This document shows, piece after piece, positions 4,221-33,910 of a DNA stretch of 40,761 nucleotides. The stretch spans positions 1 to 40,761 of the forward strand of contig JAAYDO010000121.1 in NCBI GenBank assembly GCA_012729225.1. Reading direction: 5' to 3'. This DNA is from Bacteroidales bacterium. Its GTDB lineage: Bacteria > Bacteroidota > Bacteroidia > Bacteroidales > Bacteroidaceae. Numbering within the stretch: the first letter of the stretch is position 1; the number at the start of each line of letters is the position of its first letter. Under the pieces are notes generated by a model that had not been told where the DNA came from, ran no database searches, and worked only from the letters and a program-made list of their open reading frames with translations. The translations under genes and the position numbers were made by a program.

Positions 4221-4378
4221 CTTTCACGTGGCTTGACATATTTGCCAACTCCTACCTACTCTTCACTTGCTTTCCCAAAGGAAACCCCTATGTCTTTCCC
4301 GCTAAAACAATGTATTAATCTAATAAACAACAACTTATGAATCCTTGAAAACAAACCATTATTAATGCGAAAATGAAG

Positions 4379-4458
4379 CTTTGTTCGTTGGCCATCGCAG
4401 CATTGTTCATTGACCATCGCAACATTGTTCGTTGGTCATCGTAGCATTGTTCGTTTTT
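4379..4458 (+). repeat. 22-bp tandem repeat array, locus A
   Basis: Three full units and a partial fourth, each starting CATTGTTC or CTTTGTTC and ending near CATCGCAG, with units at 4379, 4401, 4423 and 4445. The period is exactly 22 bp. It lies between the convergent HTH and M16 genes. The upstream flank has GCGAAAATGAAG, similar to the GAAAACGCA flank of loci B and C. The period is not a multiple of three and there is no open frame, so it is not coding. The same repeat type recurs at 20582-20679 and 29641-29758. Confidence 0.85.
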
Positions 4459-4486
4459 CCGCAAGGTTTTATTCGAAAAACAAAGC

Positions 4487-20169: not shown

Positions 20170-20581
20170 AATAGTTTCTGCAGAAACACTACAAAAGGAG
20201 AGAAGACAGGAGGAAAGGCGCATGACTGTATTCTGGCAATGAAGCCATAGCATGTTGTCTTAAATCTGCCACGTTTCGAAAAAACTGATGCCCCGATTCA
20301 TCTACAACAATCGCAAGGAGCAACTTCATATCACATGAGTGAGAGTTGCCTGCTTGTTTTGTGCTCTACTTCTGGACAGGTAAGTTTTTCCACAATAATT
20401 CATTGGATTTTCACCAGAAATGATTCTGCAGCAACAGAAGGTCAGGATGATTCCGACAAGTTCAATCGCTGAATGATTTCCCATGGAAAGGGAAACGGTT
20501 TGGCGAGTTTGCCGTGATGGCTATATCTCATTGATACACAAGAGATAATTGGTTTAATAAAAGCAGAAAACTGATAGGGCG

Positions 20582-20679
20582 AAAACGCATGCATGGTTCA
20601 TGAGGCATCGAACAATTGTTCGTTGGCACTCGAAGCATTGTTCGTTAGCACTTGAAGCATTGTTCGTTGCCCGTCGAAA
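20582..20679 (+). repeat. 22-bp tandem repeat array, locus B
   Basis: Flank GAAAACGCATGCATGGTTC, then four units of about 22 bp starting at 20592, 20613, 20636 and 20658. The best pair reads CATTGTTCGTTAGCACTTGAAG and CATTGTTCGTTGC with CCGTCGAAA. A perfect 12-bp palindrome GAACAATTGTTC sits at 20610-20621. Flank and units match locus C read on the minus strand, so these are copies of one dispersed element. It is non-coding by period and lies between convergent genes. Confidence 0.87.
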
Positions 20680-20797
20680 CACGCTTCGGTCGTTCGACAT
20701 GCGATATCGAAGGAAAAGACCTGCTTTCTTCCCTCTTTCTTGAAGGCTTTTACACACTCTCCCCTTTTGTTTTTTCTCTATTAATTTATTTAAAAAG

Positions 20798-27400: not shown

Positions 27401-29443
27401 ATGTATAATTTAGAAGAACTCAATCGCAAGGGACAAGAAGAACTGCTTGCGATAGCCAATGAAATGGGCATCAAGAACGCAGACAAAATGAGTGATCTTG
27501 ACCTTAGATTGACCATCATTGACGAGCAGGCCACGAGCTATGCATCCAATGCAACCATCAATGACAAGGGTGCTCGAAAGCGCTCTCGCATCAGCATGAA
27601 GAGCGTAGATCGTGTATATACTGCCAATCAAGACAAAGCAAAGAAGGTAGATAAGAACATGAAGGTGGCAAAAGACGACTCCATGCGTGCAGTCCTCTCC
27701 GACGAGGAAAAGGCAATGCTTGATGTGCACAACGAGAATGAAACCAGTGCCGAAGAAGCAAGTCCTGCACCAAAGAAGCGTGGAAGAAAGCCTAAGATCA
27801 AGACAGAAGAAGAAGTGGTGGCAAAGCCCGCTGAAGAGGATTCCGCACCAAAGAAGCGCGGAAGAAAGCCTAAGGCCAAGGCAGAAGAAGAAGTGGTGGC
27901 AAAGCCCACAGAGGTTGAAGCACCTGTTCAAGCGTCTTCTTCAGAAGAGCCAGCAGATACAGCGACTGAGATGGAGAAAGAAGCAACCTCCGAGAATGCT
28001 GTGCCAGAAGCCGCACTTGAGAATGCTGTGCCAGAAGCAACCTTCGAGGCAGAAGCATCAGAAGACACCTTTGTTCCATCAGACAATCATCCTAAGACTA
28101 TTTTTTCCACTATCAACGAGACGACTGATTCCAGTTCGGACTTCATCATCCTCCAAGACATTCCAAGAGAAGAGGCTCTTGCACCAGAAGTGAGCTTCTT
28201 TGAACGTTTTGAAAAACGTCAATCCGACAATGCTCCACAGCCATTGGACGAACCAACCTTCGATCCTCTTCCACCCGTTGCACAAACCACCAGAAGAGAG
28301 AAGCCCATCAAGGAAAAAGCATACGAATTCAATGACATCATCCGTGTGAGCGGAGTGTTGGAAACCGTGGAGAACTATGGATTCCTCCGCAGCAGCGACT
28401 ACAACTACCTGCCCTCGCCCGATGATGTGTACGTCACTCTCCAGCAGATCAAGCACTTTGGCTTGAAGACTGGCGATGTGGTTGATGGCTTTGTGCGTCC
28501 TCCAAGAGAGGGCGAACGCTTCTTCCCGCTTGCAAGTGTGGAGAAGATTAACGGATGCGAGCCAGCCCGTGTGCGTGACCGCATTGGCTTTGAGTTCCTC
28601 ACCCCACTCTTCCCAGAAGAGAAGTTCAAACTCTGCAAGGGCTTTAACGACAGCAAATCTTCTCGTGTGGTCGATCTCTTCTCCCCTATCGGAAAGGGAC
28701 AGCGCGCTCTCATTGTTGCACAGCCAAAGACTGGTAAGACCATGCTCATGAAGGACATTGCCAACTCTATAGCCGCCAACCACCCCGAGGCTTACCTCAT
28801 GATGTTGCTCATCGACGAGCGTCCGGAGGAAGTCACAGACATGGCCCGAACCGTGAATGCAGAAGTCATTGCAAGCACCTTCGATGCTCCAGCAGAAAAC
28901 CATGTGAAGATAGCAGGCATCGTGCTTGAGAAAGCGAAGCGCATGGTAGAAAGCGGACACGATGTAGTCATATTCCTTGACTCCATCACACGTCTTGCCC
29001 GTGCTTACAACACAGTATCTCCAGCCTCGGGCAAGGTGCTCTCTGGTGGTGTGGACGCAAATGCGCTCCACAAGCCCAAACGCTTCTTTGGCGCAGCCCG
29101 TAACATTGAGAATGGAGGCTCACTCACCATCATTGCCACAGCACTCATCGACACAGGTTCCAAGATGGACGAAGTTATCTTTGAGGAGTTCAAGGGTACT
29201 GGCAATATGGAATTACAGCTTGACCGTTCTTTGGCAAACAAGCGCATCTTCCCTGCTGTCAATCTCACAGCGTCCTCCACTCGTCGTGATGACCTTCTTC
29301 AAGACCAGACCACACTCAATCGCATGTGGGTGCTCCGCAATCATATTGCCGACATGACCTCTATAGAGGCTATGGACTTTGTGAAGAAGCAGCTTGACCG
29401 CACCAAGAACAACGAGGAATTCCTGCTCAGCATGAACGGATAA
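27401..29443 (+). CDS. rho: Transcription termination factor Rho with long disordered insert
   Basis: A 680-residue RNA-dependent helicase that ends transcription. Residues 1-48 are the Rho N-terminal helical domain. About 50-305 form a charged, low-complexity insert absent from E. coli Rho (419 residues in all). The RNA-binding OSB fold is about 310-385 ([19 protein letters not shown]), Walker A is QPKTGKT (441-447), Walker [10 protein letters not shown] (522-530), and the R/Q-loop region [19 protein letters not shown] is about 549-567. The insert contains a 26-residue duplication, each copy with KKRGRKPK (125-132, 151-158), an AT-hook-like basic motif, plus acidic ENAVPEA repeats. Long inserts are known in Bacteroidota Rho; in B. 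thetaiotaomicron it drives phase separation needed for gut fitness. It is monocistronic, with its own promoter, leader and terminator. Confidence 0.96.
27767..27922 (+). repeat. 78-bp tandem duplication inside rho
   Basis: Two in-frame copies beginning GCACCAAAGAAGCG at 27767 and 27845, encoding [10 protein letters not shown] and EEEVVAKP stretches. It lies in the disordered insert, and copy number could change without shifting frame. Confidence 0.75.
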
Positions 29444-29470
29444 AAACAACATTAGAACAATACACACCAC

Positions 29471-29503
29471 AAAGGGATGCATCTATGCGTGATGCATCCC
29501 TTT
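29471..29503 (+). terminator. Terminator of rho
   Basis: A perfect 13-bp stem AAAGGGATGCATC / GATGCATCCCTTT with a 7-nt loop, followed by GTTATTT. Confidence 0.8.
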
Positions 29504-29935
29504 GTTATTTCATCATGAGTTTGAACTCACCACACACCAATCCTACCATTAGGAAAGGGTAATGAAAGAACGTGTCTGAAAGGATGAAGCAGTGGAGAGT
29601 CCTCCTCCATCTGGCACATCAAATAACCGCAAAGCATTCTTCATGCTCAAACGAACCATTATTCAAGTGCCAATGAACAATGCTTCAAGTGCTCATGAAC
29701 AATTGTTCAAGCACCCATGAACAATTGTTCAATGACCAACGAACCATGCGTGCGTTTTCATCCCCACAAGCATGGCTGTTCCAATACCACATAAATCATT
29801 GTATATGAATACAATACAAGCATCCCGAGAAATGATTGTAACCTTATTCACTTATTGCAGGAGTTGCCAGACGAGAAAACCTGTTCCCACCCATTTACCC
29901 TTCATCCACTTTTCCATGAGATGGAACTGATAAAA
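29504..29935. other. Convergent intergenic region with repeat locus C
   Basis: About 430 bp between the rho terminator and the terminator of the lipoprotein gene. Its main content is the 22-bp array at 29641-29758. The remainder (29504-29640 and 29759-29935) shows no gene; AAATCATT and AAATGATT near 29790-29840 form a weak inverted repeat. Confidence 0.6.
29641..29758 (-). repeat. 22-bp tandem repeat array, locus C
   Basis: On the minus strand it begins with the flank GAAAACGCACGCATGGTTC, nearly identical to locus B, then about five units of 21-23 bp such as CAATTGTTCATGAGCACTTGAAG split as CAATTGTTC plus ATGAGCACTTGAAG. The palindrome GAACAATTGTTC occurs twice (29697-29708 and 29719-29730), exactly 22 bp apart. 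It lies between the convergent rho and DUF4369 genes. Confidence 0.87.
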
Positions 29936-29964
29936 TTGGCGTGAGTTCATCGAACCCACGCCAA
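29936..29964 (-). terminator. Terminator of DUF4369 lipoprotein gene
   Basis: 13-bp stem TTGGCGTGAGTTC / GAACCCACGCCAA (one mismatch, a G-U on the minus strand) with a 3-nt loop, followed on the minus strand by TTTTATC. Confidence 0.75.
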
Positions 29965-29997: not shown

Positions 29998-30705
29998 CTA
30001 CCTTTGAGCACCCTCCTCACACAAGGTCATATACTGCTTCACATCCTTGTTATTCTTAAAGGACTGGGGTGCTTTTCCATATATCTCATCAATCTGGGGA
30101 GTCGTGGTCGGGAAGCCAAAACGATGATAAGCATTATCGCAAAGAACAAGGAAATAAGTCAAGCCCAACACATTGTCGAAGTTTGCTATCACAAATTCAG
30201 TCTCCAGCTTATCAATAGCCATACGGAGGTTGCCCTCCTCCTCGCCCAAACGACAGAGGATCTCATCATGATCATAACCATCCAGAATCATCCTGCTCTC
30301 CTTGCGAGGCAGATCCTGCAACACGATCATCAGCGAATCACGTTCCGTCATGAAGTCATAGAACTTATCGTTCAGTGGAGTGCCCTCCACCTTCATAGCA
30401 TTATCCAAATCAATCACCTTGATGTTGCCCGCTTCTAAAATCACAGGAATATTGTCGCCACTGGAGCCGAAAAACATTCTCACACACATCACAGAATCAA
30501 TCGCACCCGACATGGTGAAGGTTCCATGCAGAATCTTACACGAATCCACAGCCTTTGTTCCATCACCGCCAATAGGGCGAAGATAGACCATATCACCATC
30601 ATAGATAGACTGCATTGATGTACCCGTGATGTTATAGCTTGTGGAGCAAGCACCCAACATGACGAGAGAGGCCACAGCGGCAATTATACCAAACACGTAT
30701 TTCAT
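29998..30705 (-). CDS. DUF4369-type lipoprotein
   Basis: A 235-residue lipoprotein (MKYVFGIIAAVASLVMLGAC, Cys20). Residues about 22-110 form a DUF4369-like beta domain (YNITGTSMQSIYDGDMVYLRP, DSCKILHGTFTMSGAID, VILEAGNIKVID). This is followed by a helical region (GTPLNDKFYDFMTERDSLM, EFVIANFDNVLGLTYFLVL) as in many Bacteroidota proteins that end in a thioredoxin fold. Here the thioredoxin domain is absent, so only the N-terminal part of that architecture is present. The function is unknown; it is anchored in the periplasm. The start at 30705 is chosen because the longer frame (30738) runs through the promoter, and the -7 box ends only 4 nt before this ATG. Confidence 0.82.
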   Translation of the reverse strand: MKYVFGIIAAVASLVMLGACSTSYNITGTSMQSIYDGDMVYLRPIGGDGTKAVDSCKILHGTFTMSGAIDSVMCVRMFFGSSGDNIPVILEAGNIKVIDLDNAMKVEGTPLNDKFYDFMTERDSLMIVLQDLPRKESRMILDGYDHDEILCRLGEEEGNLRMAIDKLETEFVIANFDNVLGLTYFLVLCDNAYHRFGFPTTTPQIDEIYGKAPQSFKNNKDVKQYMTLCEEGAQR

Positions 30706-30709
30706 GTTG

Positions 30710-30741
30710 CAAAAATACAAAACCTTCCTTACCCCCACAAA
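30710..30741 (-). promoter_or_regulatory. Promoter giving an apparently leaderless mRNA
   Basis: On the minus strand TTTG (30738-30741), 20 bp, TATTTTTG (30710-30717). The ATG at 30705 starts 4 nt after the -7 box, so transcription should begin at or next to the first codon. Confidence 0.72.
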
Positions 30742-32407: not shown

Positions 32408-33910
32408 TTATTCGTAACTTCCCATGTGAAGTATGGCCACTTCCTGCTCTGTGAGGAATCGCCAGTCACCACGTTTGATGCCCTTCTTGGTGAGGCCGGC
32501 AAACATCACACGGTCAAGTTTGCACACCTTGTAGCCAAGGCTCTCGAAGATTCGGCGAACGATACGGTTTCTGCCTGAGTGAATCTCGATACCCACCTGC
32601 TTACGGTCAGTGTCTGAAGCATAGCTGATGGCATCAGCCTTGATTTCTCCATCCTCAAGAATCACGCCCTCTGCTATCTGATTCATGTCAGCAGCAGTGA
32701 GGTTCTTGTCGAGGTGCACATGATAAATCTTCTTCTTCAAGAACTTAGGATGAGTCAGCTTCGAAGCCAAGTCTCCATCGTTGGTGAAGAGAAGCACACC
32801 AGTAGTGTTGCGGTCCAGACGACCTACAGGATAGATGCGCTCACGACAGCAGTTCTTCACAAGCTCCATTACAGTCTTGCGCTGCTGTGGGTCATCAGAA
32901 GTGGTCACATAATCCTTAGGTTTGTTAAGAATCACATACACCTTCTTCTCGATGCTCACGAGCTGGTCGTGGAAGTGTACCTCATCTGTACGCTGAACCT
33001 TCGTGCCCAACTCTGTCACTACGGTACCGTTCACAGAAACCACACCAGCCTGGATGAACTGGTCTGCCTCACGTCGAGAACAAACACCTGCGTTGGCCAA
33101 GAACTTGTTCAAACGGATTGGAGCATTAGGATCTTCAAGGTATTCCTTATACTCAATCTGCTTCTTCATGCTATACTTAGCATTAGGGTTGTAGTCGGAT
33201 GTGCGCTGACGGTTGTAGCCACCACGCTGCTGATAGCCGTAGCCATCACGATTGCCATAGCCACCACCGCGCTGCTGATGGCCACCACGGTTGTTGTAGC
33301 CACCGCGCTGCTGATAACCGCCACGGTTGTTGTTGTAGCCACCTCGCTGCTGATAGCCACCACGGTTGTTGTTGTAGCCACCCTGACGATTATAGCCACC
33401 GCCATTGTTGTAGCCACCGCGCTGCTGATAGCCACCCTGCTGCTCAAAGCCGCCTTCCTGCTGCTCATCATTTTGCTGATAGCCACCATGATTGTAGCCA
33501 CCATCACGTTGCTGATAGCCACCATCACGTTGCTGGTAGCCACCACGGTTGTTGTAGCCACCACGGTTATTATAGCCGCCCTGACGGTTATAACCTCCAT
33601 TGTTATTGTAAGCACGCTGCTGATAACCGCCTTGACGTGGCTTATACTCGCCCTCTTCGCCTGAAGATGAGCCACCAAAGCCTGCTGGACGGAAACCGCG
33701 CTCGTTCTGAACGCCATTTGAACTGTATGCAGCGCGGTCATTTCTGTTGAAACGAGGACGCTGTGGACGATCTCCACGGTTAAACTGTGGACGTCCGCCA
33801 AAATTGTTTTCACGGTTGTAAGATGAACGATAGCCCTCTCGGCCACCTTCATTTTCAGATTTTTCTTCTGAAGCAGGTGCATTACCCTGCCATTCTTCGA
33901 TTTCAGACAT
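32408..33910 (-). CDS. RsuA/RluB-family rRNA pseudouridine synthase with RGG/GYQQ low-complexity N-domain
   Basis: A 500-residue protein. Residues about 1-245 are disordered and rich in Gly, Tyr, Asn, Gln and Arg: an RNRPQ-type segment (30-80), then some 20 short blocks of the forms GGYQQRG and GGYNNRG (94-233), resembling eukaryotic RGG/FUS-like RNA-binding tails. The S4 RNA-binding domain is at 264-310 (IRLNKFLANAGVCSRREADQ), and the RsuA-type synthase domain at about 320-490 has catalytic Asp366 in PVGRLDRNTTG, RKQVGIEIHSGRNRIVRR and KGIKRGDWRFLT. The enzyme isomerises a uridine in rRNA; RluB/E/F/RsuA members cannot be told apart here. Common members have about 230-300 residues, so half of this protein is the tail. 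Confidence 0.9.
   Translation of the reverse strand: MSEIEEWQGNAPASEEKSENEGGREGYRSSYNRENNFGGRPQFNRGDRPQRPRFNRNDRAAYSSNGVQNERGFRPAGFGGSSSGEEGEYKPRQGGYQQRAYNNNGGYNRQGGYNNRGGYNNRGGYQQRDGGYQQRDGGYNHGGYQQNDEQQEGGFEQQGGYQQRGGYNNGGGYNRQGGYNNNRGGYQQRGGYNNNRGGYQQRGGYNNRGGHQQRGGGYGNRDGYGYQQRGGYNRQRTSDYNPNAKYSMKKQIEYKEYLEDPNAPIRLNKFLANAGVCSRREADQFIQAGVVSVNGTVVTELGTKVQRTDEVHFHDQLVSIEKKVYVILNKPKDYVTTSDDPQQRKTVMELVKNCCRERIYPVGRLDRNTTGVLLFTNDGDLASKLTHPKFLKKKIYHVHLDKNLTAADMNQIAEGVILEDGEIKADAISYASDTDRKQVGIEIHSGRNRIVRRIFESLGYKVCKLDRVMFAGLTKKGIKRGDWRFLTEQEVAILHMGSYE
33212..33631 (-). repeat. Coding low-complexity repeats of the pseudouridine synthase
   Basis: Many imperfect 18-33-bp units (plus-strand form TAGCCACCACGGTTGTTG) encode the GGYNNRG/GGYQQRG blocks. 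All unit lengths keep the reading frame. Such repeats can expand or contract by slippage or recombination. Confidence 0.85.

Follow-up and report, generated by a model that had tools for sequence, protein, structure and literature searches.

Phased tandem arrays of putative protein-binding sites in a probable IS982-type MITE of a Bacteroidales bacterium

The draft genome of a Bacteroidales bacterium carries a family of tandem arrays in which a 12-bp dyad-symmetric site with the consensus GMASMATKSTKC (IUPAC) recurs every 22 bp, or about two helical turns, and there is strong reason to infer from the sequence that most of these arrays are the internal minisatellite of an IS982-type MITE. We propose, with about even confidence, that this MITE has spread phased putative protein-binding sites that may now be held by purifying selection and perhaps serve as boundaries where transcription units converge. 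The family was first noticed in a stretch of 40,761 nucleotides (the window; contig JAAYDO010000121.1 of assembly GCA_012729225.1), in which an earlier note had described a dispersed, noncoding family with conserved spacing. That description is supported by the present analysis, but the note missed that most of the arrays are the core of a larger, probably mobile, element.

RESULTS

Three arrays in the window

The three arrays of the window lie where the earlier note had placed them, with array C on the minus strand, as judged from both the sequence and TRF, which reported a period of 22 at 4377-4455, 20604-20669, and 29653-29744, with 3.6, 3.0, and 4.2 copies, respectively (Table 1). Array A is preceded by AAAA and followed by TTTTT. 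Arrays B and C have the flank GAAAACGCAYGCATGG in common, as had been claimed, and this flank proved to be the end of a much longer leader. The left terminal repeat of element B was not recognized. An Rfam search, which the note had suggested, returned no match in the window at the gathering score, and a tRNA search found nothing.

Table 1. Array and element features of the window
Feature	Position	Strand	Description
Array A, solo, without leader or tail match	4374..4461	+	Four 12-bp sites at 4375, 4397, 4419, 4441
Element B leader, profile positions 80-310	20305..20601	+	nhmmer E 5.6e-29
Array B, period 22	20588..20687	+	Full-consensus sites at 20610, 20632, 20654; degenerate end sites at 20588, 20676
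Element B tail, profile positions 7-94, diverged or truncated	20676..20763	+	nhmmer E 4.3e-9
Element C tail, decayed IS982-type terminal repeat at end	29515..29648	-	nhmmer E 4.1e-25; tail model match
Array C, period 22	29631..29752	-	Sites at 29653, 29675, 29697, 29719; end sites at 29631, 29741
Element C leader, profile positions 126-310	29739..29928	-	nhmmer E 2.7e-32

Several other features of the window deserve mention. The gene to the left of element C (27401-29443) encodes the transcription termination factor rho, in which the RNA-binding domain begins only at residue 316 of 680. Imperfect 18-, 21-, and 39-bp tandem repeats at 33212-33577 lie in a minus-strand ORF (32408-33910) and are unrelated to the 22-bp arrays.

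The family is abundant in one genome and absent from the relatives searched

The genome to which the window belongs is a draft of 2,889,628 bases in 213 contigs that is 88.8% complete. The earlier note had expected more arrays than chance would give, and this was borne out: CATTGTTCRTTGG, allowing at most one mismatch, matched the genome 396 times against 2 matches for a reversed control. With at most three mismatches, AAAACGCAYGCATGGTTC had 106 matches against none for its control, and a 30-nt two-unit pattern occurred 331 times. The array family occupies about 145 places on 84 contigs of the 2.89-Mb draft, a number that was compiled by hand and represents at least 145 among the places listed; two of these are tails, one lacking an array (contig C131, near 17,000) and the other lying at a contig end. 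A 121-position model of the tail found at least 80 places. Several contigs (for example, C38, C112, C156, C196, C129, and C83) have an array no more than a few hundred bases from an end, and given this proximity, further copies may reside in assembly gaps. An exhaustive scan for three phased sites covered 757 kb and yielded 39 arrays scoring 46 to 54, the top score of the reversed control being 26; four weak matches scoring 26 to 34, and hence below 40, were left out of this set, and one of them (C104:28561) is a genuine short array.

The 30-nt pattern was then used to search 45 genomes of the genus (including the source genome itself), 399 from the family, and 393 from the order; these sets overlap and together comprise 797 distinct genomes. 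None of the other genomes contained a match, save for one isolated match with three mismatches (genome G130, locus L138), which was rejected as a true array and treated as chance. The tail model, run against 44 congeners with the stricter filters used for so large a number of genomes, gave one weak match (E 0.0026) in one genome. An exact 35-nt array pattern had no match in a wider contig collection, and the array pattern had none in viral contigs, both being collections from which near-self records may be excluded. Nor did we find the array family described in the open-licence literature, as judged from titles and the opening lines of abstracts. No genome of the same species came to light. 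One gene flanking an array has its relatives mostly in MAGs of rumen and other gut Bacteroidaceae and Prevotellaceae (54 to 77% identity), and the source genome is itself probably that of a rumen bacterium.

Most arrays are part of an element with IS982-type ends

Of 123 elements examined, 114 carry parts of an element of about 500 bp, 94 of them having both leader and tail, 10 only a leader, and 10 only a tail; the other 9 are solo arrays, among them array A of the window. The left terminal repeat is followed by an AT-rich leader of 310 profile positions with AAAACGCAYGCATGGTTC at its end; next come the array and a tail of about 140 bp that starts with GAGCATGAAGAATGCTTC and finishes with TCGAACTCACGTTA. 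The junction between leader and array was seen in 104 copies, 94 of which also have the tail, and the 23 copies with both ends measure 486 to 554 bp. Eight of the nine solo arrays start directly after AAAA, and six finish in TTTT. The only tail found without an array (C131:16883-16997; L206) has, at the array position, unrelated sequence with an inverted repeat of its own.

The ends of the element read ACGTGAGTTCGA. The terminal repeat AACGTGAGTTCGAYGAA is found, identical or with one to three changes, at the ends of IS982 elements of about 1.04 kb in congeners (L143, L148, L152, and others), and four congener transposases tested from beside such repeats all belong to IS982 (NF033520, E 1e-76 to 1e-80; Pfam DDE_Tnp_1_3). 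A short transposase fragment (L135) returned no useful family from Pfam and NCBIfam, and its full-length relatives gave IS982. Similarity between the tail consensus and the congeners is confined to the terminal 21 to 29 bases, in 9 of 44 genomes. The genome itself, in its 88.8%-complete draft, has three IS982 fragments, none of which exceeds the family cutoff.

Flanking 7-mers of the 16 elements with both repeats agree at 3.31 of 7 positions, against 2.52 ± 0.26 after shuffling, and only 4 of 2,000 shuffles were as good. Among the duplication registers from 5 to 9 bp, 7 bp was enriched, 6 and 9 bp were equaled by 111 and 84 shuffles, respectively, and 5 and 8 bp were not enriched. Perfect target duplications survive as 7-mers in 2 of the 16 elements and as an 8-mer in 1, most copies being too decayed. 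The assignment to an IS982-type MITE rests on this 7-bp register together with the match between the terminal repeats and those of IS982 elements. The earlier note had set a known mobile-element end against its own reading; such ends do flank the arrays, but the array itself is not one.

In three further congener loci (L156, L161, and L162), the terminal repeats are GTGAGTTCG(G/A)TATAA, like the published ends of MITE239 of Porphyromonas gingivalis. The L156 transposase belongs to the IS982 family, whereas the excerpts of PMC4596501 place ISPg3, to whose repeats MITE239 is matched, under IS5.

Six positions of the 12-bp site are nearly invariant

The array phase is well kept. In 73 of 74 leader-to-tail arrays, the length is 12 modulo 22 (the motif anchors admitted 74 of the 94 elements that have both leader and tail, and the site count below uses 73 of these arrays), and the 424 successive unit pairs in the fetched stretches are spaced by 22 (375 pairs) or 44 bp (49 pairs), in a count that scanned both strands, included some arrays twice, and permitted chaining over 20 to 48 bp. 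Of the unit lengths given in the earlier note, 22 bp as the most common therefore stands and a range of 21 to 23 bp does not. Length is kept in 26 of 28 tails and in 26 of 46 inner leaders, so that the array differs from the inner leader (P 3e-9) but not from the tail (P 0.18). We therefore rejected spacing as direct evidence for selection on phase; well kept as it is, the phase is not by itself decisive.

The sites themselves are more telling. Sixty-nine of 80 arrays hold four to six sites, and in 236 interior 12-mers from 73 arrays, the six symmetric positions G.A..AT..T.C matched in 1,402 of 1,416 cases, with all six intact in 222 of the 236. Of the other six positions of the site, four have consensus frequencies of 0.60 to 0.87 and two of 0.92 to 0.95, while the spacers of the 73 arrays average 0.71 and leader and tail 0.70 to 0.72. 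An independent set was assembled with the tail model, which does not contain the array, by taking three upstream 12-mers by position alone from each of 80 tails, so as to exclude selection by the search motif; there the core positions matched in 1,333 of 1,398 cases (95.4%), even though these 12-mers include windows outside short arrays or out of frame.

This constancy stands in copies that have drifted far. Mean pairwise identity is 0.58 for tails and 0.57 for leaders (maximum, 0.85 and 0.90), and relative to the consensus, each base has accumulated 0.285 to 0.298 substitutions and 0.012 to 0.013 indels. Neither gene conversion nor a recent origin of the copies would preserve some positions within 22 bp and not others, and the pattern therefore suggests that the core positions are under purifying selection. 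Thus, the selection proposed in the earlier note finds support, although in the near-constant dyad positions and not, as the note had it, in the spacing alone. One observation counts against a constraint specific to the sites: conservation extends into the adjacent leader and tail. Consensus frequency per 20-bp bin ranges from 0.54 to 0.94 with its peak directly beside the array, where the end of the leader and the start of the tail are kept at 0.85 to 0.94.

The array is also seldom lost. It adjoins 79 of 80 tails (two of them seen in part, at contig edges), the exception being C131:16883. Where at least 480 nt lies upstream of the tail (n = 73), the array is missing in 1 case, the leader is present at the junction in 68, and the left end is recognized in 31; with at least 250 nt upstream, the left end is recognized in 31 of 75.

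These data bear on the possibility that the element is a passive, selfish MITE with the array as its cargo, surviving only where insertion does no harm, at 3' ends and in convergent gaps. Its MITE anatomy and IS982-type ends are clear, and a comparable element, BrickBuilt, is known in which the unit has both conserved and less conserved positions, according to the excerpts of PMC4596501. Neutral decay, however, should not spare six symmetric positions while the rest drifts to about 70%, nor does it readily fit the loss of the array from only 1 of 73 tails when the left end is unrecognizable in 42 of the same 73.

In the 757 kb scanned, the consensus site occurs 120 times inside arrays and 9 times outside them (once in the reversed control), and since it is rare outside arrays, we see no conventional regulon. 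A CRISPR locus was considered and rejected: there are no unique spacers, the 10-bp spacers being variants of one repeated sequence.

Arrays favor convergent gaps and are evenly spaced

By location, 51 of the 123 elements lie between convergent genes, 41 between tandem genes, 6 between divergent genes, 3 within predicted ORFs, and 22 at contig edges, with gene calls made by a simple codon score and the last two groups not classed as gaps. All six divergent elements are in gaps of at least 880 bp. In the 757-kb scan, 36 of the 39 arrays lie in gaps, no gap has two, and arrays occupy 24 of the 60 convergent gaps, 11 of the 195 tandem gaps, and 1 of the 61 divergent gaps (P 4e-8 and 8e-10). Within tandem gaps, the element opposes the direction of the genes in 29 cases versus 12 (P 0.012). 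An orientation linked to replication was rejected: all six elements of contig C34 are on one strand, but over all contigs 32 pairs of neighbors agree and 24 do not (P 0.35). Passive survival might account for the convergent preference, which therefore does not prove a function: any insertion is expected to avoid divergent gaps and convergent gaps are where a neutral one would most likely survive.

Spacing is harder to explain in this way. Among the 145 places, 61 intervals on the same contig have a minimum of 6,187 bp and a median of 12.4 kb, whereas 23 below 6 kb are expected at random; the 28 intervals of the 757-kb set have a minimum of 6,417 and a median of 14,445 bp. Against a null that placed the same numbers of arrays in convergent, tandem, and divergent gaps of each contig, the lack of intervals below 6 kb has a P value of 0.0016, the minimum one of 0.0005, and the coefficient of variation one of 0.012, the null using the 36 in-gap arrays (25 intervals) and the observed set all 39 arrays (28 intervals). 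Adding C104:28561 creates no interval below 6 kb, and adding C104:22813 as well (score 26, in the range of the control) creates one of about 5.7 kb. Because the gap-class-matched null is beaten, the even spacing is more than a by-product of gap preference, and this, too, speaks against a purely passive MITE, which we consider unlikely on the whole.

The minimum spacing is 6.1 kb for pairs in the same orientation and 8.5 kb for pairs in opposite orientation. Deletion between direct repeats was thereby rejected as the cause, short intervals being missing for opposite-orientation pairs too, and transposition immunity or purging is a possible one. Immunity would follow if the array were needed for transposition, as a set of sites for an accessory transposase or host factor or as an immunity signal conserved in source copies, and the constancy of the array beside 79 of 80 tails fits such a role. 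Yet the terminal repeats, which transposition requires, are more decayed than the array; there are no very similar copies (nearest-neighbor identity has a median of 0.67 to 0.71 and a maximum of 0.85 to 0.90); solo arrays exist without MITE ends; and congeners have IS982 elements without the array pattern. A role in transposition therefore strikes us as quite improbable.

The sites look like DNA sites rather than RNA stems

The arrays could also act as RNA, as a structured 3' end, a bidirectional terminator, or an mRNA stabilizer between convergent genes, and in addition to their placement, their folding is in keeping with this: array RNAs fold better than shuffled sequences (mean z of -2.8 and -2.1 on the two strands; 30 of 74 arrays sampled), and the solo arrays C94, C79, and C13 form strong AAAA-hairpin-TTTT structures. 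However, no compensatory pairing was seen between positions that face each other across the dyad or the spacer (z between 0 and -7), and on this ground a protein-bound DNA site is the favored reading over an RNA stem. An intrinsic terminator (a GC hairpin and then a T run) was rejected, terminator-like hairpins occurring on just 5 of 78 array strands. In convergent gaps, such a hairpin accompanies 5 of 47 gene ends where the gap contains an array and 10 of 64 where it does not (0.04 in shuffles). Element C sits between two terminator-like hairpins that belong to the flanking genes and lie outside the element (29469-29505 and 29936-29964), both from a consensus scan of the window that found 13 against 8.8 ± 3.8 in shuffles. 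Together with the empty Rfam search, this makes an RNA element slightly less probable still than a role in transposition.

The terminator-like hairpin at 29936-29964 is that of the minus-strand gene at 29998-30738. It contains two facing sequences like IS982-type terminal repeats, which gives the impression of an element end co-opted for termination.

DISCUSSION

In architecture, the nearest known system appears to be the BrickBuilt MITE of P. gingivalis, with other ends, unit, and copy number. As described in the excerpts of PMC4596501, BrickBuilt likewise consists of a leader, a tandem minisatellite, and a tail; is intergenic and species restricted; and has short inverted-repeat ends. It also includes copies that have lost the distal ends of leader and tail and arrays without leader or tail, and its unit has conserved and nonconserved positions. 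It differs in its 23-nt unit, its GAGACC-type ends assigned to IS5, its 19 copies with 1 to 22.8 units, and its expansion between strains, whereas the present family has a 22-bp unit, IS982-type ends, and about 145 places with usually four to six sites. For BrickBuilt, the same excerpts report neither a dyad nor strict phase, and neither a preference for convergent gaps nor even spacing. By analogy with BrickBuilt, segments of which have bidirectional promoter activity according to those excerpts, the present element with its AT-rich leader might be a mobile promoter or regulatory element, but it avoids promoter-bearing gaps (1 of 61 divergent gaps occupied, and 6 of 98 classified elements in such gaps), and we give this reading only a slight chance.

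Other comparisons concern the ends and the distribution. MITE239, with ISPg3-type ends, has a terminal repeat, given in Table 2 of PMC4596501 as ACGTGAGTTCGA..., that is nearly that of the present element; the available excerpts describe no minisatellite in it, and the likeness is in the ends only. IS982-derived MITEs are already known, as the excerpts of PMC9769881 make clear: MITECca01 of Cardinium is one, lineage specific, abundant, and mostly intergenic, and it differs in being about 240 bp long, the word "tandem" being absent from the main text as available. The REP/BIME sequences of enterobacteria, too, are dispersed extragenic repeats often found between convergent genes, according to the portions of PMC1525189 consulted. 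By contrast, the present family is built of a 12-bp site repeated directly every 22 bp, on an element with IS982-type ends. In the excerpts of PMC3733652, REP/BIME sequences with a RAYT are palindromes tagged by GTAG/CGTC. The link to REPIN or RAYT that the earlier note had raised found no support, there being no match to the Y1 transposase PF01797 in the draft (it is present in 5 of 14 control genomes).

The mechanism that we would put forward, with about even confidence, runs as follows. Each 12-bp site would be bound by a sequence-specific, probably dimeric, host DNA-binding protein; adjacent dimers, lying on roughly one face of the helix, would bind cooperatively; and the arrays would be kept in the host by purifying selection. 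The last and weakest step is speculative: the protein-coated array might form a topological or transcriptional boundary, in the way that gyrase-binding BIMEs are suspected of contributing to the organization of the E. coli genome. It is suggested by the preference of arrays for convergent gaps and by their not lying close together. In the parts of the sources available, positive supercoiling builds up between convergent genes in E. coli and yeast (PMC8360656), REP/BIME sequences are bound by gyrase, Pol I, and IHF (PMC1525189, PMC6379681), and BIME-2 elements, in which gyrase cleavage sites are overrepresented, "might contribute to genome organization" (PMC6379681). A more far-reaching version, which we advance tentatively and with the balance of judgment against it, is a lineage-specific chromosome-organizing system: a host protein that binds phased 12-bp dyads would have captured an IS982 MITE as its carrier, and some 140 protein-coated arrays, in about 40% of convergent gaps and with a minimum spacing of about 6 kb (median, about 12 to 14 kb), would mark the borders of topological or transcription domains in one species and in none of the congeners searched.

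If the arrays are indeed maintained protein-binding sites, they would provide a bacterial example of binding sites that a transposon has distributed as a lattice across the genome and the host has then retained. A dedicated boundary at convergent gene borders would then become a testable question, and the site, its phase, and its positions would serve as sequence handles toward the binding protein.
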